A stretch of 34,099 bases of DNA, from contig JAAYBR010000100.1 in NCBI GenBank assembly GCA_012730045.1, positions 1 to 34,099 of the forward strand. Reading direction: 5' to 3'. The DNA comes from Candidatus Hydrogenedentota bacterium. Its GTDB lineage: Bacteria; Hydrogenedentota; Hydrogenedentia; Hydrogenedentales; CAITNO01. This document shows positions 1,886-19,012 of this stretch, one piece after another. Made by a program: the position numbers and the translations under genes. Below the pieces are notes generated by a model. The model was not told where the DNA came from. It ran no database searches and was given only the letters and a program-made list of their open reading frames with translations. Every line of letters begins with the position of its first letter. The first letter of the stretch is position 1.

Positions 1886-2614
1886 GCGCAGAGGCGGATA
1901 GTTGGCGGAAACGCAAGGGAACAGGAGGGGAGGGAGGTTTCGCCCGGGCGGCCCCGGGTTCATGTCCCCCATCTCAAATCTCAAATTTGAGATTCTATGG
2001 ATGTTGGGCCGGACACAGACGCAAGCCTCTTCGTGGACTCTCTTTTCGACCTCCCACACTTCCAGGGCAATCACGCTAAAAGGCCTCTCGAGAAACGCCA
2101 GCGACCGGCATGAACGCTCCCCGGATCCGTGATTTGGTGTTTGTTGTCCCAAAGGGGTATCCGCATATTGTCCAAGCAGGCCGCCGCCCATCCCCTCAGC
2201 CCCGGGTCCGCACAACGCGCAGCGCCTTGGAGTGCGGCAGCTTGCTGCCGCCTTTCTTCGCGTGGGCTTGCCCGCGCGGGGGCACACGAAAAATGACGGG
2301 GACCGCGCGTTTCCCCGAGGCCGTCGCGGCACCCCCTGCCGCAATTTCGGCTGCCCCGTTGGGGCATGATCCTTTTGACCCGTTTACCCAGGGCAGGCCT
2401 GGCCCTTCGGGCGGCGGCCTGGCCTGGGCTATATTCGGCAACGCTTTCAGCGTTGGGGAGGTCGGATAGAGGGCAATGAACGCACTCCGCCCAGAAGGTG
2501 TTTGCGGTTTCAGTGCGATTGCCCTGCCCATTTTTCCCGGCCGGGGTGCCCGCCCCGCGGCCTTGTGGTACACTTTGCCCGTTGTTTTGAACCCCCAGAA
2601 GGAGTGTTGGCGCC
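1886..2614. other. Non-coding region rich in palindromes
   Basis: A 729-base stretch with no supported gene. It holds a perfect 18-bp palindrome at 1977-1994 (AATCTCAAATTTGAGATT), a REP-like repeat at 2217-2280, several GGCCTGGCC-type palindromes near 2395-2425 and a CAACGCT/AGCGTTG hairpin at 2439-2455. The last 60 bases probably hold the menB promoter: TGG-TACACT at 2566-2574 resembles an extended -10 box, but I see no good -35. AAGGAG about 10 nt before 2615 is the menB ribosome site. Confidence 0.55.
2217..2280 (+). repeat. REP-like palindromic repeat, copy A
   Basis: This copy has the family core GCGCAGCGCCTTGGAGTGCG, then an imperfect GGCAGC-TT-GCTGCC hairpin, CGCCTTTCTTCGCG and a second hairpin of GGGCTTGCCCGCGC type. 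The same order recurs at 14743-14826, 14921-15066, 18093-18263 and, in reverse, at 18946-19012. It lies between genes. Confidence 0.8.
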
Positions 2615-4356: not shown

Positions 4357-5576
4357 CGCCCGGCACCACGCGGGTGTACCGCTACGACCTGCCGCTGGCC
4401 CATCCGATACGGGTGGGCGGGGAAAGGCTGACCCGCCGCCGGGGGTGGCTGCTGGAGCGCGCGGACGCCGACGGCCGCTCCGCCTGGGGAGAGGCCGCGC
4501 CGCTGCCGGGGTTCAGCCGCGAAACCTTTGACGAGGCCGGGGAGGCGTTGATCGCCCTGTGCGGGGTGTCCGACCCGCCCCCCGATGCGCCGCCCTCTGT
4601 CCGTTTCGCCCTGCATGCGGCACGGGGGGATACCACGCCGTCAGGGAACCGCCGCGTGCCGCTCTGCGCCCTGCTGCGGGGGGACGGGTTGCAGAAGCTC
4701 ACACACGCCTCCGAAGCGGCCAGAAAGGGATATCAGGCGGTCAAACTGAAAGTCGGCGGGAGAAAGGTGGGGGAGGACATCGCGTTGACGTTGAACCTGC
4801 GCAGCTTGCTGGGACCGGACGTGGCCCTGCGGCTCGACGCCAACCGGGCGTGGTCGTTGGAGGAGGCGGAGTCCTTTCTGCGGCGCATGACGGAGGAAGA
4901 TGCGCTCTATGCGCTGGCGCCGGTGGCCTTCATCGAGGAACCCCTCAAGGACTGGACGCAGCTGCCCGAACTGGCGGCGCGGACGCGGGTTCCGCTGGCG
5001 TTGGACGAGACCCTTCAGGAGGTCTTCGGCGCGCGCACCGTCTCGCGCGCGGAGGCGGAGCCGGCCTTTCGGGCGGCATCGTGCTGGGTGTGGAAGCCCA
5101 CCCTCTGCGGACCCTTTCAGACGGCCACAGAGGACTGGCTGTCTTTCGGTCCCCCCTTCAGGGGGGGGATTCGCGGAAGCGAACCGGGGGATGTTCCGGA
5201 CTCCGGGGCGTTGGCGGGAACGGGATTGCTTCGCTTCGCTCGCAATGACCTCGAAAAAACACGTCATTGCGAGCGAAGCGAAGCAATCTCATGCTCGCGA
5301 AAACGCGGCATCCCCCCTCATGGGGAGATCAAGACCGGCCTTCCGGTGGTGTCCAGCGCCGCCTATGAGTCGGGCGTGGGCATTGCGGCGATTGTTAGGG
5401 CGGCAGGGGAAGGCGTTCTCGAACCCTTGGGCATTGACACCTACGCGGCGCTGGCGGAGGACGTGCTGGCGCGGCGGCTGCCACTGGACGCGCCGGAGGC
5501 GGAAGTGGGCGGGGTGCTGGCCGCCGCCGGGGACGTGGTCCGTTCACGGCTGGAATTGGTTCATGAGCACCCCTGA
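4353..5576 (+). CDS. menC: o-succinylbenzoate synthase (MenC) with in-frame repeat insertion
   Basis: An enolase-superfamily enzyme that dehydrates SHCHC to o-succinylbenzoate. I choose the GTG at 4353, which overlaps the menA stop as GTGA; the product is 407 residues. Catalytic residues are visible: KLK (K131/K133), the metal ligands D162 (RLDANRAWS), E195 (FIEEPLKD) and D218 (ALDETL), and K248 (WKPTL). After DWLS (~residue 264) about 61 residues of repeat-derived sequence (5145-5327) interrupt the barrel before VVSSAAYESGVGIAA resumes the family pattern. Without the insert the length (~346) is normal. The frame stays open, so the gene may still be active; the insert falls in the loop after the Lys-bearing strand. 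The 3' end overlaps menE by 14 nt. Confidence 0.92.
   Translation: MTPGTTRVYRYDLPLAHPIRVGGERLTRRRGWLLERADADGRSAWGEAAPLPGFSRETFDEAGEALIALCGVSDPPPDAPPSVRFALHAARGDTTPSGNRRVPLCALLRGDGLQKLTHASEAARKGYQAVKLKVGGRKVGEDIALTLNLRSLLGPDVALRLDANRAWSLEEAESFLRRMTEEDALYALAPVAFIEEPLKDWTQLPELAARTRVPLALDETLQEVFGARTVSRAEAEPAFRAASCWVWKPTLCGPFQTATEDWLSFGPPFRGGIRGSEPGDVPDSGALAGTGLLRFARNDLEKTRHCERSEAISCSRKRGIPPHGEIKTGLPVVSSAAYESGVGIAAIVRAAGEGVLEPLGIDTYAALAEDVLARRLPLDAPEAEVGGVLAAAGDVVRSRLELVHEHP
5145..5327. repeat. Palindromic repeat element inserted in menC
   Basis: About 183 bp (61 codons) foreign to the MenC family. Its core is a perfect inverted repeat with 26-nt arms, 5224-5249 and 5263-5288, separated by 13 nt (arm start GATTGCTTCGCTTCGCTCGC). 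The outer left part includes CCCCCCTTCAGGGGGGG and GGGGCGTTGGCGGGAACG. The same core occurs near 12537-12822 and, decayed, at 249-293. Its length is a multiple of three and one frame is stop-free, so menC is not broken. An mRNA hairpin of 26 bp would form inside the coding region. Confidence 0.88.
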
Positions 5577-12395: not shown

Positions 12396-12560
12396 TTTTG
12401 GTAGACTCCGTTTGCCGCCGAAACATGCGGCGGCGAGGTTGTGGGCAATCTTACCGCAGTTGGACACCGCGCGCGGCGCGGGGGTTTCACTATAAGATGC
12501 CGCAGAGCGGAGAGATTCTGGCAAGGGATTGCCGTCGTGTCCGGGCGTTGGCGGGAACGA

Positions 12561-12822
12561 GATTGCCGCGCTTCGCTCGCAATGACCGGAAAAAACAGCT
12601 TTGCTGCAATGACCGCGCCAAATGGCGTCACTGCAATGACCGCAGAAAATGGCGTCAGTGCAATGACTGCGCCAAATGGCGTCAGTGCAATGACCGCGCA
12701 AAATGGCGTCACTGCAATGACCGCGGAAAATGGCGTCAGTGCCATGATGGCGGAAAATGGCTTTACTGCCATGACCGCATAAGCGCGCGTCATTGCGAAC
12801 GAGCGAAGCGAGGGAAGCAATC
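12561..12822. repeat. Palindromic element with expanded internal loop
   Basis: The left arm 12561-12586 (GATTGCCGCGCTTCGCTCGC, then AATGAC) and the right arm 12789-12822 (GTCATTGCGAACGAGCGAAG and onward) are imperfect inverted repeats of the same family as the element inside menC (5224-5288). There the loop is 13 nt; here about 200 nt of 27-bp tandem units fill it. The outer left flank GGGCGTTGGCGGGAACGAGA also matches the menC copy. Confidence 0.85.
12606..12794. repeat. 27-bp tandem repeat, seven units
   Basis: Seven consecutive 27-nt units begin at 12606, 12633, 12660, 12687, 12714, 12741 and 12768. The consensus starts GCAATGACCGC, continues AAAATGGC and ends GTCA(C/G)T. The last two units are more diverged. 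Each unit is itself a weak inverted repeat (GCAATGAC against GTCACTGC), as if the tip of the parent palindrome had been duplicated. Confidence 0.92.
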
Positions 12823-12902: not shown

Positions 12903-14726
12903 ATGGTGATCCTTGCGGTGGAAGGCGGTGGCACGGCCACCCGGGCGGGACTGTACGGGGGGGCGACGCTGCTGGCGGAGGGGACGGGCGGTCCGGCGAA
13001 TCCGGTGGCCTACGGCCTGTCGCGGACTGTGGACACCCTGGTGGAGCTGGCGGAGCGGCTGCTGCCGGAGGGTGCCGCTCCGGACTGTGTCTGTCTGGCC
13101 CTTGCGGGGGCGGCGGAGCCGTTGCTGCGGGCCGCCCTGGCGCGCGGGACGGCGCAGCGGCTGGGCGCGGGGAGGGTCGTGGCCACCACGGACCTGCACC
13201 CGCTGCTGTTCGCCAATGCCGGGAAGGGTGCGGGGATTCTGACCATCGCGGGCACGGGGTCTTCCGTGCTGGGGAAGGACGCCTTCGGCTGCACCGCCCG
13301 GGCGGGCGGGCGGGGGGCGCTTTTCAGCGACGACGGCAGCGCCTACCGGCTGGCCGTGGAGGGCCTGCGCGCGGCGGCCGCGATGGCCGACGGTCTGGGG
13401 CCGGAAACCCCGCTGCTGGAAATGCTGATGGAGGGGGCGGGGGCGGCGTCTCTGGAGGGGCTTGTCGCCTGGTCTGCCCGCGCTGACAAGCGCGCGGTCG
13501 CGGCGCTGGCCCCCTTGGTCACAGCGGCTGCGGAGGAGGGGGACTATGTCGCCGCAGGCTGCCTGGAGGAGCAGGCCCGCAGGCTGGCGGGGCAGACCGC
13601 CGTGGTGGCGCGGCGTCTCGGGCTGGAGGACGGCTACCGCGTGTTCATGCACGGCGGGCTCCTGCTCAACGCGCCCCGGTACGCGGAGGCGTTCCGGCAG
13701 TGCTTGGACATGTACAGCGAGGCCCAGTTCATGACCTGCGCCCTGACAGGCCATGCCGCCGTGGCGGCGTGGGCGGAAACACTGGACCGGGTGCCGGAAT
13801 GGGCGTCGGAGTGGCGCGGGGACGCCCCCGGGACGCGTCATCCGGAGCTGCCGCCCACAGAGCGGCGCGCCGACAGCGGGCCGTTCCTCGACGCGCTGGA
13901 CGCGGCGGGCATCGTGGACCTCATGATCCGTCGGGAGGCGGACACCTGCGCAGCGGTGGCGGCGTGTGCGTCTGAAATCGCCCGGGTGGTGGGCCTGGCC
14001 GGACGCGTGCTGGAGGGCGGGGGCCGTATCTTCTACATCGGGGCGGGCACCAGCGGGCGCCTCGGCGTGCTGGACGCCTCGGAGTGTCCGCCGACCTTCG
14101 GTGTGTCCCCGGACCGGGTTATCGGCATCATCGCGGGGGGTGACACGGCCCTGCGGAACAGCCTGGAGGGGGAGGAGGACCGTCCCGAGCACGGCGGCCG
14201 CGACTTGGCGGCGCACAGCGCCGGCCCCGGCGATCTCGTGGTGGGCATTGCGGCGTCCGGTGCCACGCCCTACGTGGCGGGGGCCCTGGAGCACGCCCGG
14301 GCGGCGGGCGCGCCCACCGTGCTCGTCTGCTGCGTGCCCCGCCCGGCGATTGCGGCGGACACCGTGATCGCCCTGGACACGGGACCAGAGGTCCTCGCCG
14401 GGTCCACCCGCCTGCGCGCGGGCACGGCCACCAAAATGGTCCTCAACATGATCAGCACGGGGGGGATGACCCTGGCCGGATACGTTTGCCGGGGCCTCAT
14501 GGTGGAGATGAGGCCGACCAACGCCAAACTGCGCCGCCGGGCCGCGCGGATCGTCGCCGAACTCGGCGGATGCCCTGAGGCGGACGCTGCGCACCTCTTG
14601 GAAAGCGCCGGATGGCACATCCCCACGGCGGTGGTGATGGCCGTCCTGAAAGTGCCGTCGGAAGAGGCGCGACGGCGGTTGCAGGCCGCCGGAGGCCGCC
14701 TGCGCGGGATATTGGGCGAAACCTGA
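12903..14726 (+). CDS. murQ: Fused amino-sugar kinase / N-acetylmuramic acid 6-phosphate etherase
   Basis: A 607-residue two-domain enzyme. Residues 1 to ~292 are a BadF/BadG/NagK-type ASKHA kinase with phosphate loops VEGGGTATRAG and IAGTGSSVLG and an adenosine-side FMHGGLLLN. Residues ~320-607 are a MurQ etherase of the SIS fold: IFYIGAGTSGRLGVLDASEC (residues ~376-395) followed by PPTFG, the catalytic Glu in ASEC, the second Glu in EGEED, then GIAASGATPYV and EMRPTNAK. MurQ removes the lactyl ether of MurNAc-6-phosphate to give GlcNAc-6-phosphate. The kinase half could supply MurNAc-6-P (as MurK does in clostridia) or phosphorylate GlcNAc. With anmK 4.5 kb away this suggests cell-wall recycling. 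The ATG at 12903 has an AAAGGAG site at short spacing; GTG at 12906 is possible. Confidence 0.92.
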   Translation: MVILAVEGGGTATRAGLYGGATLLAEGTGGPANPVAYGLSRTVDTLVELAERLLPEGAAPDCVCLALAGAAEPLLRAALARGTAQRLGAGRVVATTDLHPLLFANAGKGAGILTIAGTGSSVLGKDAFGCTARAGGRGALFSDDGSAYRLAVEGLRAAAAMADGLGPETPLLEMLMEGAGAASLEGLVAWSARADKRAVAALAPLVTAAAEEGDYVAAGCLEEQARRLAGQTAVVARRLGLEDGYRVFMHGGLLLNAPRYAEAFRQCLDMYSEAQFMTCALTGHAAVAAWAETLDRVPEWASEWRGDAPGTRHPELPPTERRADSGPFLDALDAAGIVDLMIRREADTCAAVAACASEIARVVGLAGRVLEGGGRIFYIGAGTSGRLGVLDASECPPTFGVSPDRVIGIIAGGDTALRNSLEGEEDRPEHGGRDLAAHSAGPGDLVVGIAASGATPYVAGALEHARAAGAPTVLVCCVPRPAIAADTVIALDTGPEVLAGSTRLRAGTATKMVLNMISTGGMTLAGYVCRGLMVEMRPTNAKLRRRAARIVAELGGCPEADAAHLLESAGWHIPTAVVMAVLKVPSEEARRRLQAAGGRLRGILGET

Positions 14727-14742: not shown

Positions 14743-14826
14743 GAGCCTGGGTGCGGCAGAGCGCGCAGCGCCTTGGAGTGCGGCGGCTTGCCGCCGCCTT
14801 TCTTCCCGCAAGCTCAGCTTGCGGGT
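14743..14826 (+). repeat. REP-like palindromic repeat, copy B
   Basis: This copy begins GCCTGGGTGCGGCAGAGC, then the core GCGCAGCGCCTTGGAGTGCG, the GGCGGC-TT-GCCGCC hairpin, CGCCTTTCTT and a terminal CCCGCAAGCT-C-AGCTTGCGGG hairpin. It is in the same orientation as copies A, C (right half) and D (right half). Confidence 0.88.
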
Positions 14827-14920
14827 GTCCTCTCCATCCACCAGCACACGAGCGTCTTCATGCAGGGCGTTCCCCCATGAGGCCGCGAAGTGCTTCAGGA
14901 GTCCCGCAGACAGGACGCTC

Positions 14921-15066
14921 GCGCGGGCAAGCCTACGCACTCCAAGGCGCGCGCCGCGCGCGGGAGGACCGCCGTAGCTTTTGTTGGCCTGGGCGTTGCA
15001 GTGCGCGCAGCGCCTTGGAGTGCGGCGGCTTGCCGCCGCCTTTCTTCCCGCAGGCTCGCCTGCGGG
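14921..15066. repeat. REP-like inverted pair (REPIN-like), copy C
   Basis: Two repeat halves face each other. The left, reversed half contains GCACTCCAAGGCGCGCGC. A spacer of GGGAGGACCGCCGTAGCTTT type follows. The right half has GCGCAGCGCCTTGGAGTGCG, the GGCGGC-TT-GCCGCC hairpin and a CCCGCAGGC-TC-GCCTGCGGG hairpin. The same paired arrangement and spacer occur at 18093-18263. Confidence 0.88.
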
Positions 15067-15585: not shown

Positions 15586-17970
15586 ATGGTGCGGTTCAAT
15601 TGGTTCATGCAGGGATGGCTCGGAAATGTAAACCGGAAAACACGGACGGCCGGGCTGTTCTTGATTGTCTGCTGGGTCCTCGCCCTTTCCGGATGTCCGA
15701 AGACTGTTCTTGTGACGGTTCCCGATCTGGCGGGCATGACGCGGGCCGAGAGCGAAGCCCTTCTCGGGCGGCTTCAGTTTTCCGTCGGGGAGGTCACGGA
15801 GGCTTACAGCCCCTCGGCGCCGGCGGGAAGTGTGATCGGACAAAGTCCGGCAGCCGGGGAACGCGTAGCTCGGGGAGCCTCGGTAAGCATGGTCCTTTCA
15901 AAGGGGCCGGAGCCGCCCTCCACGGAGGCCGTGACTGTTCCCGATCTCCGGGGAATGACCGAGGCGGAAGGCATGTCTTCCATCCAGGCTCTTGGTTTGG
16001 TCGTGGGCACTGTGGGACACCAGTACGATAGCGGCGTTCCCGCAGGACATGTCCTTGAGCAGTTGCCGGCCGCCGGATCACGCGTGGCCCCCGGAGCGAA
16101 GGTGTCCTTCGTGTTGTCCCGTGGACCGCGTCTCGTCCCCGATCTCTTGGGGAGGGACCAGTACTCCGCCGCAATGGCCCTAAGGGACGCGGACCTCGCG
16201 TGGGGAAATGTCACCTATGAGCACAGCGAAACGATCCCCGTGGGCCGCGTGTGCGGACAGAGTCCCGCGCCAGGAACCCCCATTTCCGTGATGGCGTATG
16301 TGAACATCGTAATTTCCAACGGCATCATGCCGGTGCCCGTCCCCAATGTGGTCGGCATGACCCAGGATGCGGCGACAGAAGCGATTGTCGCCGCTGGACT
16401 TGTCCTCGGAGGAGTGGATGGACAATTCAATGCCACCATTCCCGCTGGCACGGTGATGAGCCAAAATCCGACGGCGGGCACGAACAAAGTTCCAGGATCC
16501 CCTGTCAGCCTCGTTGTCTCCCTTGGGCTTCCCCGGGTGCCGAATGTGGTCGGCCTGACCCGTCTGTTGGCGGAGGCGGCCATTCTGCGGGCGAGTCTGG
16601 CCGTGGGGGAGGTGACGGAGCAGCACGATGAGACCGTGCCTGCGGGCATAGTCATGGACCAGTATCCCGAGCCCGGAACGGTCAGCAATCCGGGAAGACA
16701 GGTGCGCCTGATGGTGTCGGCGGGGCCGGAACCGGTCCCGGTGCCCTATGTGGTGGGGATCCCCCAGGCGCAGGCGGAAGCCGCCATTGCGGCCGCGCGG
16801 CTGGCTGTTGGAAGCGTCTCCGTGCAGTTCAGCGTCTCCGTGCCGGAGGGCAGCGTGATCAGCCAGGACCCCGTCGGCGGCACGGAGGTTGCCCCGGGAA
16901 CCGAAGTGCATCTGGTCGTTTGCGGAAAGCCCACCATTCCAAACGTGGTCGGAAAGCGCGCCATAACCGATATTCAGGCAAGATTTTCCTCTGACACGAG
17001 AGCGCCCGCCGCTTTCTCACCGGACGGCCAAGTGGTAATCACCAATACCGCGGGAAACGCCGCGAAACTGTGGAACGTAACCTCCAGACAGGCACTGTTT
17101 ACCCTGTCCCATGCGGAACCGGTCACCTCTGTGGCCTTCTCCCCCCAGGGAGACCGGGTGATCACCGGCAGCGAAGACTGGAAAGCCAAGATTTGGGACG
17201 TGCAGACCGGCGCCCTGCTGAAGACGCTGGTGGGGCATACCGGAAAAGTCCTGGCGGTGGCGTTCAGCCCTGACGGCACAACGGTGCTTACCGGATCGGA
17301 GGACAAAACCGCCCGCGTTTGGAACGCATCCACAGGGGGAATCGTGCAGACTTTTGCGGATCATGACCGCGGCGTAAGTTCTGTGGATTACGCGCCAAAC
17401 GGGGCCACGGTATATACCGCCTGCGGAAAAGTCTATGCTTGGAGCGTCGCCTCGGGAGTGGGCAGCGAGATGCAATCCTATGGTTACACCGTGGATTGTT
17501 CCCCAGACGGACGCTGGTTGTTGGTTTCCGGTGTCTCTCTCGGCCCTTCCGATGTGTTGGATTTGCAGACAGGAGCCGTGACCCAAGAAATTGACATGGT
17601 GGAGGCGCGCTTTTCGCCGAACGGGAAAGAGATATACGGCGACGGTAGGTTCAGCGGCGGAATTCTCTTGGACGTCTCCACAGGCTTCACGTTGCAGAGA
17701 TACCCTCTCCCTGTGCTGTGCGTGTCTTCAGATGGGAAAAGCGTCCTCTGTGAGGCTATGTTTACTGATGGTGTTCGGATATTCATATCGAACAAACTTG
17801 CCGCCGCACAGGAGACGCTCCTACGCTCAGGATTGTTTCCTGGATCTGTCACCTCCCAGCTTCACGATAGCATTCCCAGAGGACATGTGGTACATCAGAG
17901 CCCGTTGGCCGGAGGTCCGGCAGAGGTCGGGAGCACGGTGGACCTGATCCTGTCCGGGGTCACGGAATGA
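15586..17970 (+). CDS. PASTA-repeat lipoprotein with nested WD40 beta-propeller
   Basis: A 794-residue lipoprotein. The signal peptide ends in LALSGC with the lipidated Cys at 37. Six complete PASTA modules follow (starts ~44, 116, 182, 251, 318 and 385), each with a VPDL/VPNVVG opening and a SQxPxxGxxVxxGxxV-type end. A seventh begins at IPNVVGKRA (450-458), is broken by a WD40 domain (~460-738) and resumes at AAQETLLRSGLFPGSV to the end. Seven WD blades are visible, with repeated AFSPDG and W(N/D)V starts. PASTA modules bind peptidoglycan or beta-lactam-like ligands in kinases and PBPs; here no kinase or transpeptidase domain is present, so a wall-anchored scaffold is my inference. AAGGAG precedes the ATG. 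Codon use is less GC3-biased than in neighbours. Confidence 0.9.
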   Translation: MVRFNWFMQGWLGNVNRKTRTAGLFLIVCWVLALSGCPKTVLVTVPDLAGMTRAESEALLGRLQFSVGEVTEAYSPSAPAGSVIGQSPAAGERVARGASVSMVLSKGPEPPSTEAVTVPDLRGMTEAEGMSSIQALGLVVGTVGHQYDSGVPAGHVLEQLPAAGSRVAPGAKVSFVLSRGPRLVPDLLGRDQYSAAMALRDADLAWGNVTYEHSETIPVGRVCGQSPAPGTPISVMAYVNIVISNGIMPVPVPNVVGMTQDAATEAIVAAGLVLGGVDGQFNATIPAGTVMSQNPTAGTNKVPGSPVSLVVSLGLPRVPNVVGLTRLLAEAAILRASLAVGEVTEQHDETVPAGIVMDQYPEPGTVSNPGRQVRLMVSAGPEPVPVPYVVGIPQAQAEAAIAAARLAVGSVSVQFSVSVPEGSVISQDPVGGTEVAPGTEVHLVVCGKPTIPNVVGKRAITDIQARFSSDTRAPAAFSPDGQVVITNTAGNAAKLWNVTSRQALFTLSHAEPVTSVAFSPQGDRVITGSEDWKAKIWDVQTGALLKTLVGHTGKVLAVAFSPDGTTVLTGSEDKTARVWNASTGGIVQTFADHDRGVSSVDYAPNGATVYTACGKVYAWSVASGVGSEMQSYGYTVDCSPDGRWLLVSGVSLGPSDVLDLQTGAVTQEIDMVEARFSPNGKEIYGDGRFSGGILLDVSTGFTLQRYPLPVLCVSSDGKSVLCEAMFTDGVRIFISNKLAAAQETLLRSGLFPGSVTSQLHDSIPRGHVVHQSPLAGGPAEVGSTVDLILSGVTE

Positions 17971-18347
17971 CCGTGTACTGATTCCCCAACAACGAGGACC
18001 GATCCAAGCCTCCGGGATGTTGGCACCATGAGGGCCAGCCTTCCGGGGGCATTGTTTTCTTCCGATAAGGCACGGGGGACGTCCTGCCGCCCGCGTGCAA
18101 GCCCGCGCGAAGGAAGGCGCAGGCAAGCCTACGCACTCCAAGGCGCGCGTTGCGCGCGGGAGGACCGTCGCAGCTTTTGTTCGCCTGGGTGCGGCAGAGC
18201 GCGCAGCGCCTTGGAGTGCGGCGGCTTGCCGCCGCCTTTCTTCCCGCAGGCTCGCCTGAGGGTTCTTCTCCACCTCAGCCGACATGCCCGCCTGAAGAAG
18301 TGGTATCCTCTCACGGAACCGTGAAACTTGTCGGGAGCCCTGCGGAC
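17971..18347. other. Intergenic region with a REP-like pair
   Basis: A 377-base gap between the PASTA-WD40 gene and the RAYT gene. Its main content is the paired repeat at 18093-18263. I see no gene. The stretch 18264-18347 leads directly into the transposase start at 18348. Confidence 0.6.
18093..18263. repeat. REP-like inverted pair (REPIN-like), copy D
   Basis: The left reversed half (GCAAGCCTACGCACTCCAAG) is followed by the GGGAGGACCG..GCAGCTTTTG spacer, GCCTGGGTGCGGCAGAGCGC and the right half with the GGCGGC-TT-GCCGCC hairpin and a CCCGCAGGC-TC-GCCTG end. It sits 85 bp upstream of the RAYT gene. Confidence 0.9.
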
Positions 18348-18842
18348 ATGTCGTCCTCCGACAGACCAAGCGAACCCTTGCCGGACAAGCCGGGCTGGTG
18401 GCATCACGCCCCCATCCACCGGTTTGAACCGGGGGGTGTTTACATGATCACGGCCGGCACGCTGCACAAGCGGCCGCTGTTCACCGGGGACACCCGGCTT
18501 TCCCTTCTTGAGGACACGCTCCTTGGGGTGTTCCGCGAACACGGTTGGCAACCCCAGGCCTGGGCTGTTTTTCCAAACCACTATCACTGCGTGGCTCTGG
18601 CTCCTGCCGGAGATGGAGGGCTGCCCCTGCGCGATGCTGTGAGGTGTGTGCATTCCCTGTCCGCACGGGAGCTGAACCGGCTGGACAGCGCGCCCGGACG
18701 CAGGGTCTGGTTTCAGTACTGGGACACGCGGCTGACCTATGAGAAGAGCTACTATGCGAGAATCAATTACACGCAGAACAACCCGGTGAAGCACGGGCTT
18801 GTGGCGTGCGCGGAACAGTACGCCCACTGTTCCGCAGCGTGA
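18348..18842 (+). CDS. REP-associated tyrosine transposase (RAYT), C-terminus cut by TGA
   Basis: A 164-residue Y1/HUH transposase of the IS200-like RAYT type. The HUH metal site is NHYHC (H78, H80) and the likely nucleophile is Y141 in NYTQNNPVKHGLV. The family usually continues ...CSAAWF.. for about 30 more residues. Here a TGA (18840-18842) stands where a TGG (Trp) is expected, and the same frame continues as FSQNADDVFRRKVATFGYGR to a second TGA at 18927-18929. The core is complete, but the conserved C-terminal tail is lost unless TGA is read through. It is flanked by REP-like repeats in opposite orientation, consistent with RAYT-mediated REP spread. The start at 18348 excludes repeat-derived upstream codons. 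Confidence 0.85.
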   Translation: MSSSDRPSEPLPDKPGWWHHAPIHRFEPGGVYMITAGTLHKRPLFTGDTRLSLLEDTLLGVFREHGWQPQAWAVFPNHYHCVALAPAGDGGLPLRDAVRCVHSLSARELNRLDSAPGRRVWFQYWDTRLTYEKSYYARINYTQNNPVKHGLVACAEQYAHCSAA

Positions 18843-18945
18843 TTCTCCCAGAATGCCGACGACGTGTTCCGGCGCAAAGTGGCGACGTTTGGTTATGGGC
18901 GGGTGAGCGTGGCAGACGATTTTGACTGAGGGGCATGTCGTGAGG

Positions 18946-19012
18946 GCCGCGCGGGCAAGCCCGCGCGAAGAAAGGCGGCGGCAAGCCACCGCACTCCAAG
19001 GCGCTGCGGCGG
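18946..19012 (-). repeat. REP-like palindromic repeat, copy E (reverse)
   Basis: The sequence GCGCGGGCAAGCCCGCGCG, AAGAAAGGCGGCGGCAAGCC and GCACTCCAAGGCGCTGCG is the reverse complement of the family core. It starts 17 bp after the extended RAYT reading frame ends, so the transposase lies between copies D and E. Confidence 0.88.

Follow-up and report, generated by a model that had tools for sequence, protein, structure and literature searches.

A RAYT gene between inverted REP repeats was found in the window, a stretch of 34,099 nucleotides that is part of contig C100 of a Candidatus Hydrogenedentota genome (4.46 Mb, 155 contigs). Our preferred reading, to which we give a probability of roughly 80%, is a REPtron, or RAYT/REP system. 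Its transposase, an HUH/Y1 single-strand enzyme, most likely recognises, on single-stranded DNA, a REP hairpin preceded by a TTGGA[GC]T foot, cuts beside this footed hairpin and copies or moves REP doublets (REPINs) with the same two ends as the RAYT cassette. The driver would be a paralogue on contig C12, and a separate MITE would have taken up one REP and carried it to further sites. Such a system is ordinary in kind and unusual in its foot and spread.

The RAYT gene and the REPs of the window

The open frame at 18348..18842 on the + strand encodes 164 amino acids (ATG start assumed) and matches the NCBIfam family NF047646 REP_Tyr_transpos (E 4.7e-25, 88.2 bits, cut-off 80); in Pfam it had no match at E up to 10. 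By sequence, the PDB entry closest to it is that of E. coli TnpA-REP (4er8; E 1.8e-9, or 2.2e-10 with a profile). The protein carries the HUH motif N77-H78-Y79-H80 and Tyr141, which is predicted to be catalytic; H78, H80 and Y141 are invariant in all 12 aligned RAYTs, the tyrosine standing in a Y...NP context. Counted on the PDB alignment, Y141 falls on Y115 of E. coli TnpA-REP, which we take to be the catalytic tyrosine of that enzyme. The AlphaFold model (mean pLDDT 71.8) is confident for about residues 31-130 and poor in its C-terminal part. Foldseek returned 4er8 as the first match to it (5e-8), and VIA Z scores reached 11.5-14.1 to IS608/ISDra2-type transposases (IS608 TnpA 14.1) and 9.6 to 4er8.

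The frame is broken by an in-frame TGA at 18840-18842, where each of the 11 remaining RAYTs in the alignment has Trp. Homology extends to 18926, within a segment at 18843..18929 (+) that adds 28 residues before a stop, and the window RAYT is C-terminally truncated. For E. coli TnpA-REP, PMC8266576 reports that activity suffers when 34 or 21 residues are removed from the C-terminus and rises when 13 are removed. In-frame stops occur in four of the 80 RAYT loci described below. One other RAYT (L182) has its stop at the very same conserved Trp column, which makes 2 of 82 RAYTs, too few cases to carry meaning.

The core GCGCAGCGCCTTGGAGTGCG, with up to 3 mismatches, occurs five times in the window (2217+, 14763+, 15005+, 18201+ and 18990-) against 0.01 copies expected from shuffles. 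Two of these REPs bracket the gene with their feet pointing outward, one upstream at 18210..18236 (+; core 18201-18220) and an inverted one downstream at 18974..19000 (-; core 18990-19009). A second upstream REP, detected by the hairpin pattern at 18116..18142 (-), forms a heads-in pair with the one at 18210-18236. Another heads-in pair consists of 14920..14946 (-; hairpin pattern, 2 mismatches) and 15014..15040 (+; core 15005; hairpin pattern). The remaining copies lie at 14772..14798 (+; core at 14763), between the ORFs at 12903-14726 and 15586-17970, and at 2226..2252 (+; core 2217-2236; hairpin pattern), inside a MITE. The initial annotation, a RAYT flanked by REP-like repeats, is borne out by the NF047646 match and the inverted REPs on both sides. 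The repeat placed 85 bp upstream ends at 18256, about 90 bp ahead of the ATG at 18348, and the one placed just downstream in opposite orientation corresponds to the inverted core at 18990. Further copies listed at 2217, 14743 and 14921 are real, that at 14743 being the + REP with its core at 14763. The paired, inverted arrangement with a conserved spacer, proposed for two of the copies, was recovered as two 146-nt stretches (14921-15066 and 18117-18262) that are 92% identical. Single-strand folding of the window REPs was hardly beyond shuffles (z -0.48 and -1.03), which we attribute to the GC-rich region; folding energy did not discriminate in three of the four stretches tested, and the upstream REP on contig C12 gave z -2.15.

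Inverted arms of 55-72 nt lie on both sides of the window RAYT. Together with the HUH/Y1 fold, they would also suit a TIRtron, with long terminal repeats unrelated to REPs, or a plain insertion sequence of the IS200/IS605 type, in place of a REPtron. We hold this to be very unlikely: RAYT copies are few (two cognate ones in this genome and 1-2 per relative) against tens of repeats, and the part held in common is the footed hairpin, long inverted arms being missing in many relatives.

The window has other features as well. A second interspersed inverted repeat family of the GTCATTGCGAGCGAAGCGAAGCAATC type, unrelated to REPs, occurs at 249-291, 5206-5308 and 12541-12595, and a seven-copy 27-bp tandem array at 12552-12821 adjoins a repeat of this type. 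The protein encoded at 15586-17970 unusually combines seven PASTA repeats with WD40 repeats behind them.

REP copies and doublets across the genome

Searching the genome for CTTGGAGTGCGSNNGCNNGCNNNNGCC with up to 2 mismatches gave 90 copies, 76 of them exact, and none for the reversed control. Genes were predicted with a home-made codon-model caller; although 81% of the bases were called coding, 72 of the 84 readable copies lie outside predicted genes, and two of the 12 apparently intragenic ones stem from a wrong antisense call across the RAYT itself. Doublets closer than 200 bp include 47 of the 90 copies (15 heads-out, 10 heads-in and 1 direct). Heads-out doublets have a spacing of mostly 112-125, and the readable ones measure 124-150 bp from foot to foot, with a mode of 143. 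Of the 14 heads-out doublets that could be read in the fetched loci, 13 have an A-type tail at one end and a B-type tail at the other. From their sequences, the doublets look like RAYT cassettes with the gene replaced by about 90 bp, which is the usual REPIN picture. The RAYT/REP identity and the REPIN-like pairing that had been proposed are supported, as are the abundance of the repeats across the genome and their extragenic location. A search for REPIN movement yielded no clean empty/filled site, including among 12 pairs of related RAYT loci. Many REPs are found less than about 300 bp from a contig end (e.g., C40:61, C43:37, C129:200, C139:139, C145:204), and such repeats may break the assembly.

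A second REP subfamily of this genome has the stem-loop GCGGCGGCAACGACGCCGC and the same foot (e.g., C1:51879 and C50:3479). It is the type that flanks the RAYTs of one relative, G015; no RAYT with second-subfamily flanks was found in the genome studied here. Its only two cognate RAYTs, in the window and on contig C12, both lie between inverted REPs of the first type.

The C12 paralogue (C12:280-855) is intact, with a complete open frame, and is 70% identical to the window RAYT. A dN/dS of 0.15 between the two, at a dS of 1.47 that is near saturation, indicates that both copies were long under purifying selection and that the break in the window copy is probably recent. The cassettes differ in their ends, which are B-type upstream and A-type downstream at C12 and A/A in the window. 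Because the window RAYT has a TGA at an invariant Trp, the C12 paralogue is the likelier driver, and the A/B composition of the genome's heads-out doublets, like that of the C12 cassette, also indicates C12 and not the window copy as their source. The intact driver in this genome is thus probably the C12 paralogue. The suggestion that the window RAYT probably mobilises the repeats around it is less well supported, given the truncation, the intact paralogue and the A/A flanks.

A MITE that carries a REP

The REP at 2226-2252 lies within the REP-bearing form of a MITE (2063..2526) that measures 464 bp and has 19-bp terminal inverted repeats. Of the 23 loci that have an exact 20-mer core, 19 (2217 among them) show arms of this MITE, whose length is about 465 bp. 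Target duplications of 10-12 bp were found at five copies (L013, L017, L023, L109 and L255) and, with one mismatch, at L014; in the window copy they are degraded. In five copies of the MITE that were examined, the REP is lacking and a different middle section of about 175 bp stands in its place, which indicates that the MITE gained its REP-bearing segment by replacement. Judged by their arms, many of the "exact" core copies are attributable to MITE transposition and not to the RAYT. This further weakens the suggestion that the window RAYT mobilises the repeats, and the exact 20-mer count was rejected as a gauge of RAYT activity.

These observations, together with REP-rich relatives that have no RAYT, could be taken to mean that the repeats spread mainly by the MITE and recombination and that the RAYT merely sits among them. 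We consider this unlikely, since about 60 of the 87 REP contexts in the genome are outside the MITE (flanks judged by eye), the foot flanks the RAYT at 76 of 80 loci of other genomes, and the A/B doublets replicate the cassette ends.

Distribution within Hydrogenedentota

In a sample of 67 other genomes of the phylum, 11 have a cognate RAYT, counting a broken one (G041) and leaving out a distant match (G026). At least five strict footed hairpins occur in 9 of these 11 relatives versus 14 of the 56 without a cognate RAYT (one-sided Mann-Whitney p 0.0012, Fisher p 0.0006, both uncorrected for kinship); two of the 11 have no REP by the strict pattern. Repeat number thus tracks the presence of the RAYT only in part, and the refuting condition set beforehand, similar repeat abundance in relatives that lack a RAYT, has a mixed outcome. 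A closer look at 14 genomes that bear REPs but lack a cognate RAYT turned up nothing beyond distant Y1 transposases and, in G057, a single RAYT fragment accompanied by footed hairpins. Among the 30 loci fetched from them, 26 had neither word nor hairpin and three had the bare word without a palindrome, G057 being the one with footed hairpins; no footed hairpins were found beside the distant Y1 transposases of these genomes. The RAYTs missing from REP-rich relatives may be losses or gaps in fragmented assemblies. The gene downstream of the window RAYT is present in all eight relatives tested, with no matching RAYT cassette beside it; the same-genus genome is uninformative for synteny because its contig begins at that gene.

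One foot and diverging stems across phyla

A genome scan with a 12-row RAYT alignment gave 386 relatives, and the best 80, from about 17 phylum-level groups, were examined. These loci were picked by protein alone, and five of the 80 coincide with alignment rows. The foot word TGGA[GC]TGC lies within 450 bp of the gene at 76 of the 80 loci and on both sides at 67; its density is 4.29/kb within 450 bp of the RAYT versus 0.20/kb farther off. The control word GT[AG]GTGC occurs at 12 of the 80 loci and is no denser near the RAYT (0.20/kb) than farther away (0.29/kb), so the GT[AG]G foot of canonical REPs is not the one found here. An unbiased 8-mer count likewise returned TGGAGTGC as the commonest flanking word (72 of 80 loci). 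The exact word TGGA[GC]TGC is absent at L154, where 15 bp were available downstream, and at L157, L187 and L191; a longer foot word with one mismatch allowed is absent only at L154 and L187. A stem follows directly behind the foot in 254 of 298 cases, compared with 1.8% of shuffles. Footed hairpins are present at 73 loci, and 49 of these have one on the + strand upstream of the gene and one on the - strand downstream. Within the stems, the first two pairs, G-C and C-G, hardly vary, and positions 3-8 show several pair types with the pairing kept.

TTT follows 184 of the 254 stems. Hairpins with such a T-rich tail, extragenic as they are, might be host elements (terminators, nucleoid sites or mRNA-stability sites) beside which the RAYT inserts. 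That explanation appears highly implausible to us, as one foot, with differing stems, stands beside one transposase clade across phyla and is absent beside other Y1 transposases that the same genomes carry, and as the doublets have near-fixed spacing and fixed end types. The REPtron reading also agrees with the similarity of RAYTs and their REPs, which were correlated over the 73 hairpin loci (Mantel r 0.283, a value reached by none of 1000 permutations) and in RAYT pairs below 50% identity (r 0.125, reached by 11 of 1000). From such patterns we infer that the RAYT binds the foot, cleaves and mobilises the repeats. The base tracts ahead of the foot and behind the stem were examined for co-variation that might mark a shared cleavage site; none emerged at the locus level (p 0.52). 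The RAYT tree mixes phyla and places Hydrogenedentota RAYTs in several positions; with low support for 44 of its 84 inner branches, horizontal transfer is suggested only.

Comparison with known systems

The REPtrons of gammaproteobacteria, as represented by E. coli TnpA-REP (PMC2817692, PMC8266576), share with the present system an HUH/Y1 gene between inverted REPs, a foot plus hairpin, many extragenic doublet copies and the co-variation of RAYT and REP. They differ in their GT[AG]G foot; here the foot is TTGGA[GC]T and the motif NHYH. According to PMC8266576, three of the residues with which E. coli TnpA-REP contacts the foot are relatively conserved across groups; Q95 and R104 are two of these three. 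In our alignment with that enzyme, Q95 falls on F/Y/H, with uncertain gap placement nearby, and R104 on T/S; these residue changes would fit a changed foot.

Further feet and classes have been described. Nunvar 2010 reported GT(A/G)G heads (PMC2817692), and Quentin 2018 assigned GT[AG]G to class 2 genes with canonical REPs, a CnGA foot to class 3, and structures called "atypical" to subclass 2.6 (PMC6006769). Subclass 2.8, with eight cyanobacterial members, is described there by NHYH, W[YH], YIHYNP and a proline-rich N-terminus; judged by this description, it shares with our RAYTs the NHYH motif, a W[YH]-like motif and Y...NP, and is set apart by its GT[AG]G REPs. Class 3 TnpA-Y1 likewise has a non-GTAG foot, with hundreds of copies in Solibacter, but the foot is CnGA and the signature Y----Q, as opposed to Y...N[PA] here. 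Di Nocera 2013 reported GTAG and CGTC tags as well as TIRtrons (PMC3733652). TIRtrons (TIRYT) also combine a RAYT-like gene with inverted repeat flanks, one group being from Acidobacteria; their TIRs are described as unrelated to REPs, some with GGGGWSAS, unlike the genome-wide footed hairpin described here. The passages seen of these three papers do not contain the TTGGAGT foot, and literature searches for the foot and for REPtron or RAYT papers, covering mainly the text of openly readable papers, gave no further mention.

The RAYT clade and its tag seem to belong to a known class of bacterial mini-transposons, as a branch that has received little description. We think it somewhat more probable than otherwise that they form a distinct REPtron class, spread over about 17 phylum-level groups largely outside Proteobacteria, in which the near-invariant TTGGA[GC]T foot would act as a non-GTAG recognition code while the hairpins diverge, and whose cassettes may cross phyla. 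Work on RAYT/REP systems rests on GTAG-footed, mostly gammaproteobacterial examples, and a clade that strongly conserves another foot offers a natural experiment on how the foot is read and the cut site chosen. The REP hitchhiking on an unrelated MITE cautions against reading repeat counts as RAYT activity. Finally, footed REPs explain abundant intergenic palindromes in uncultured phyla and may also break short-read assemblies.
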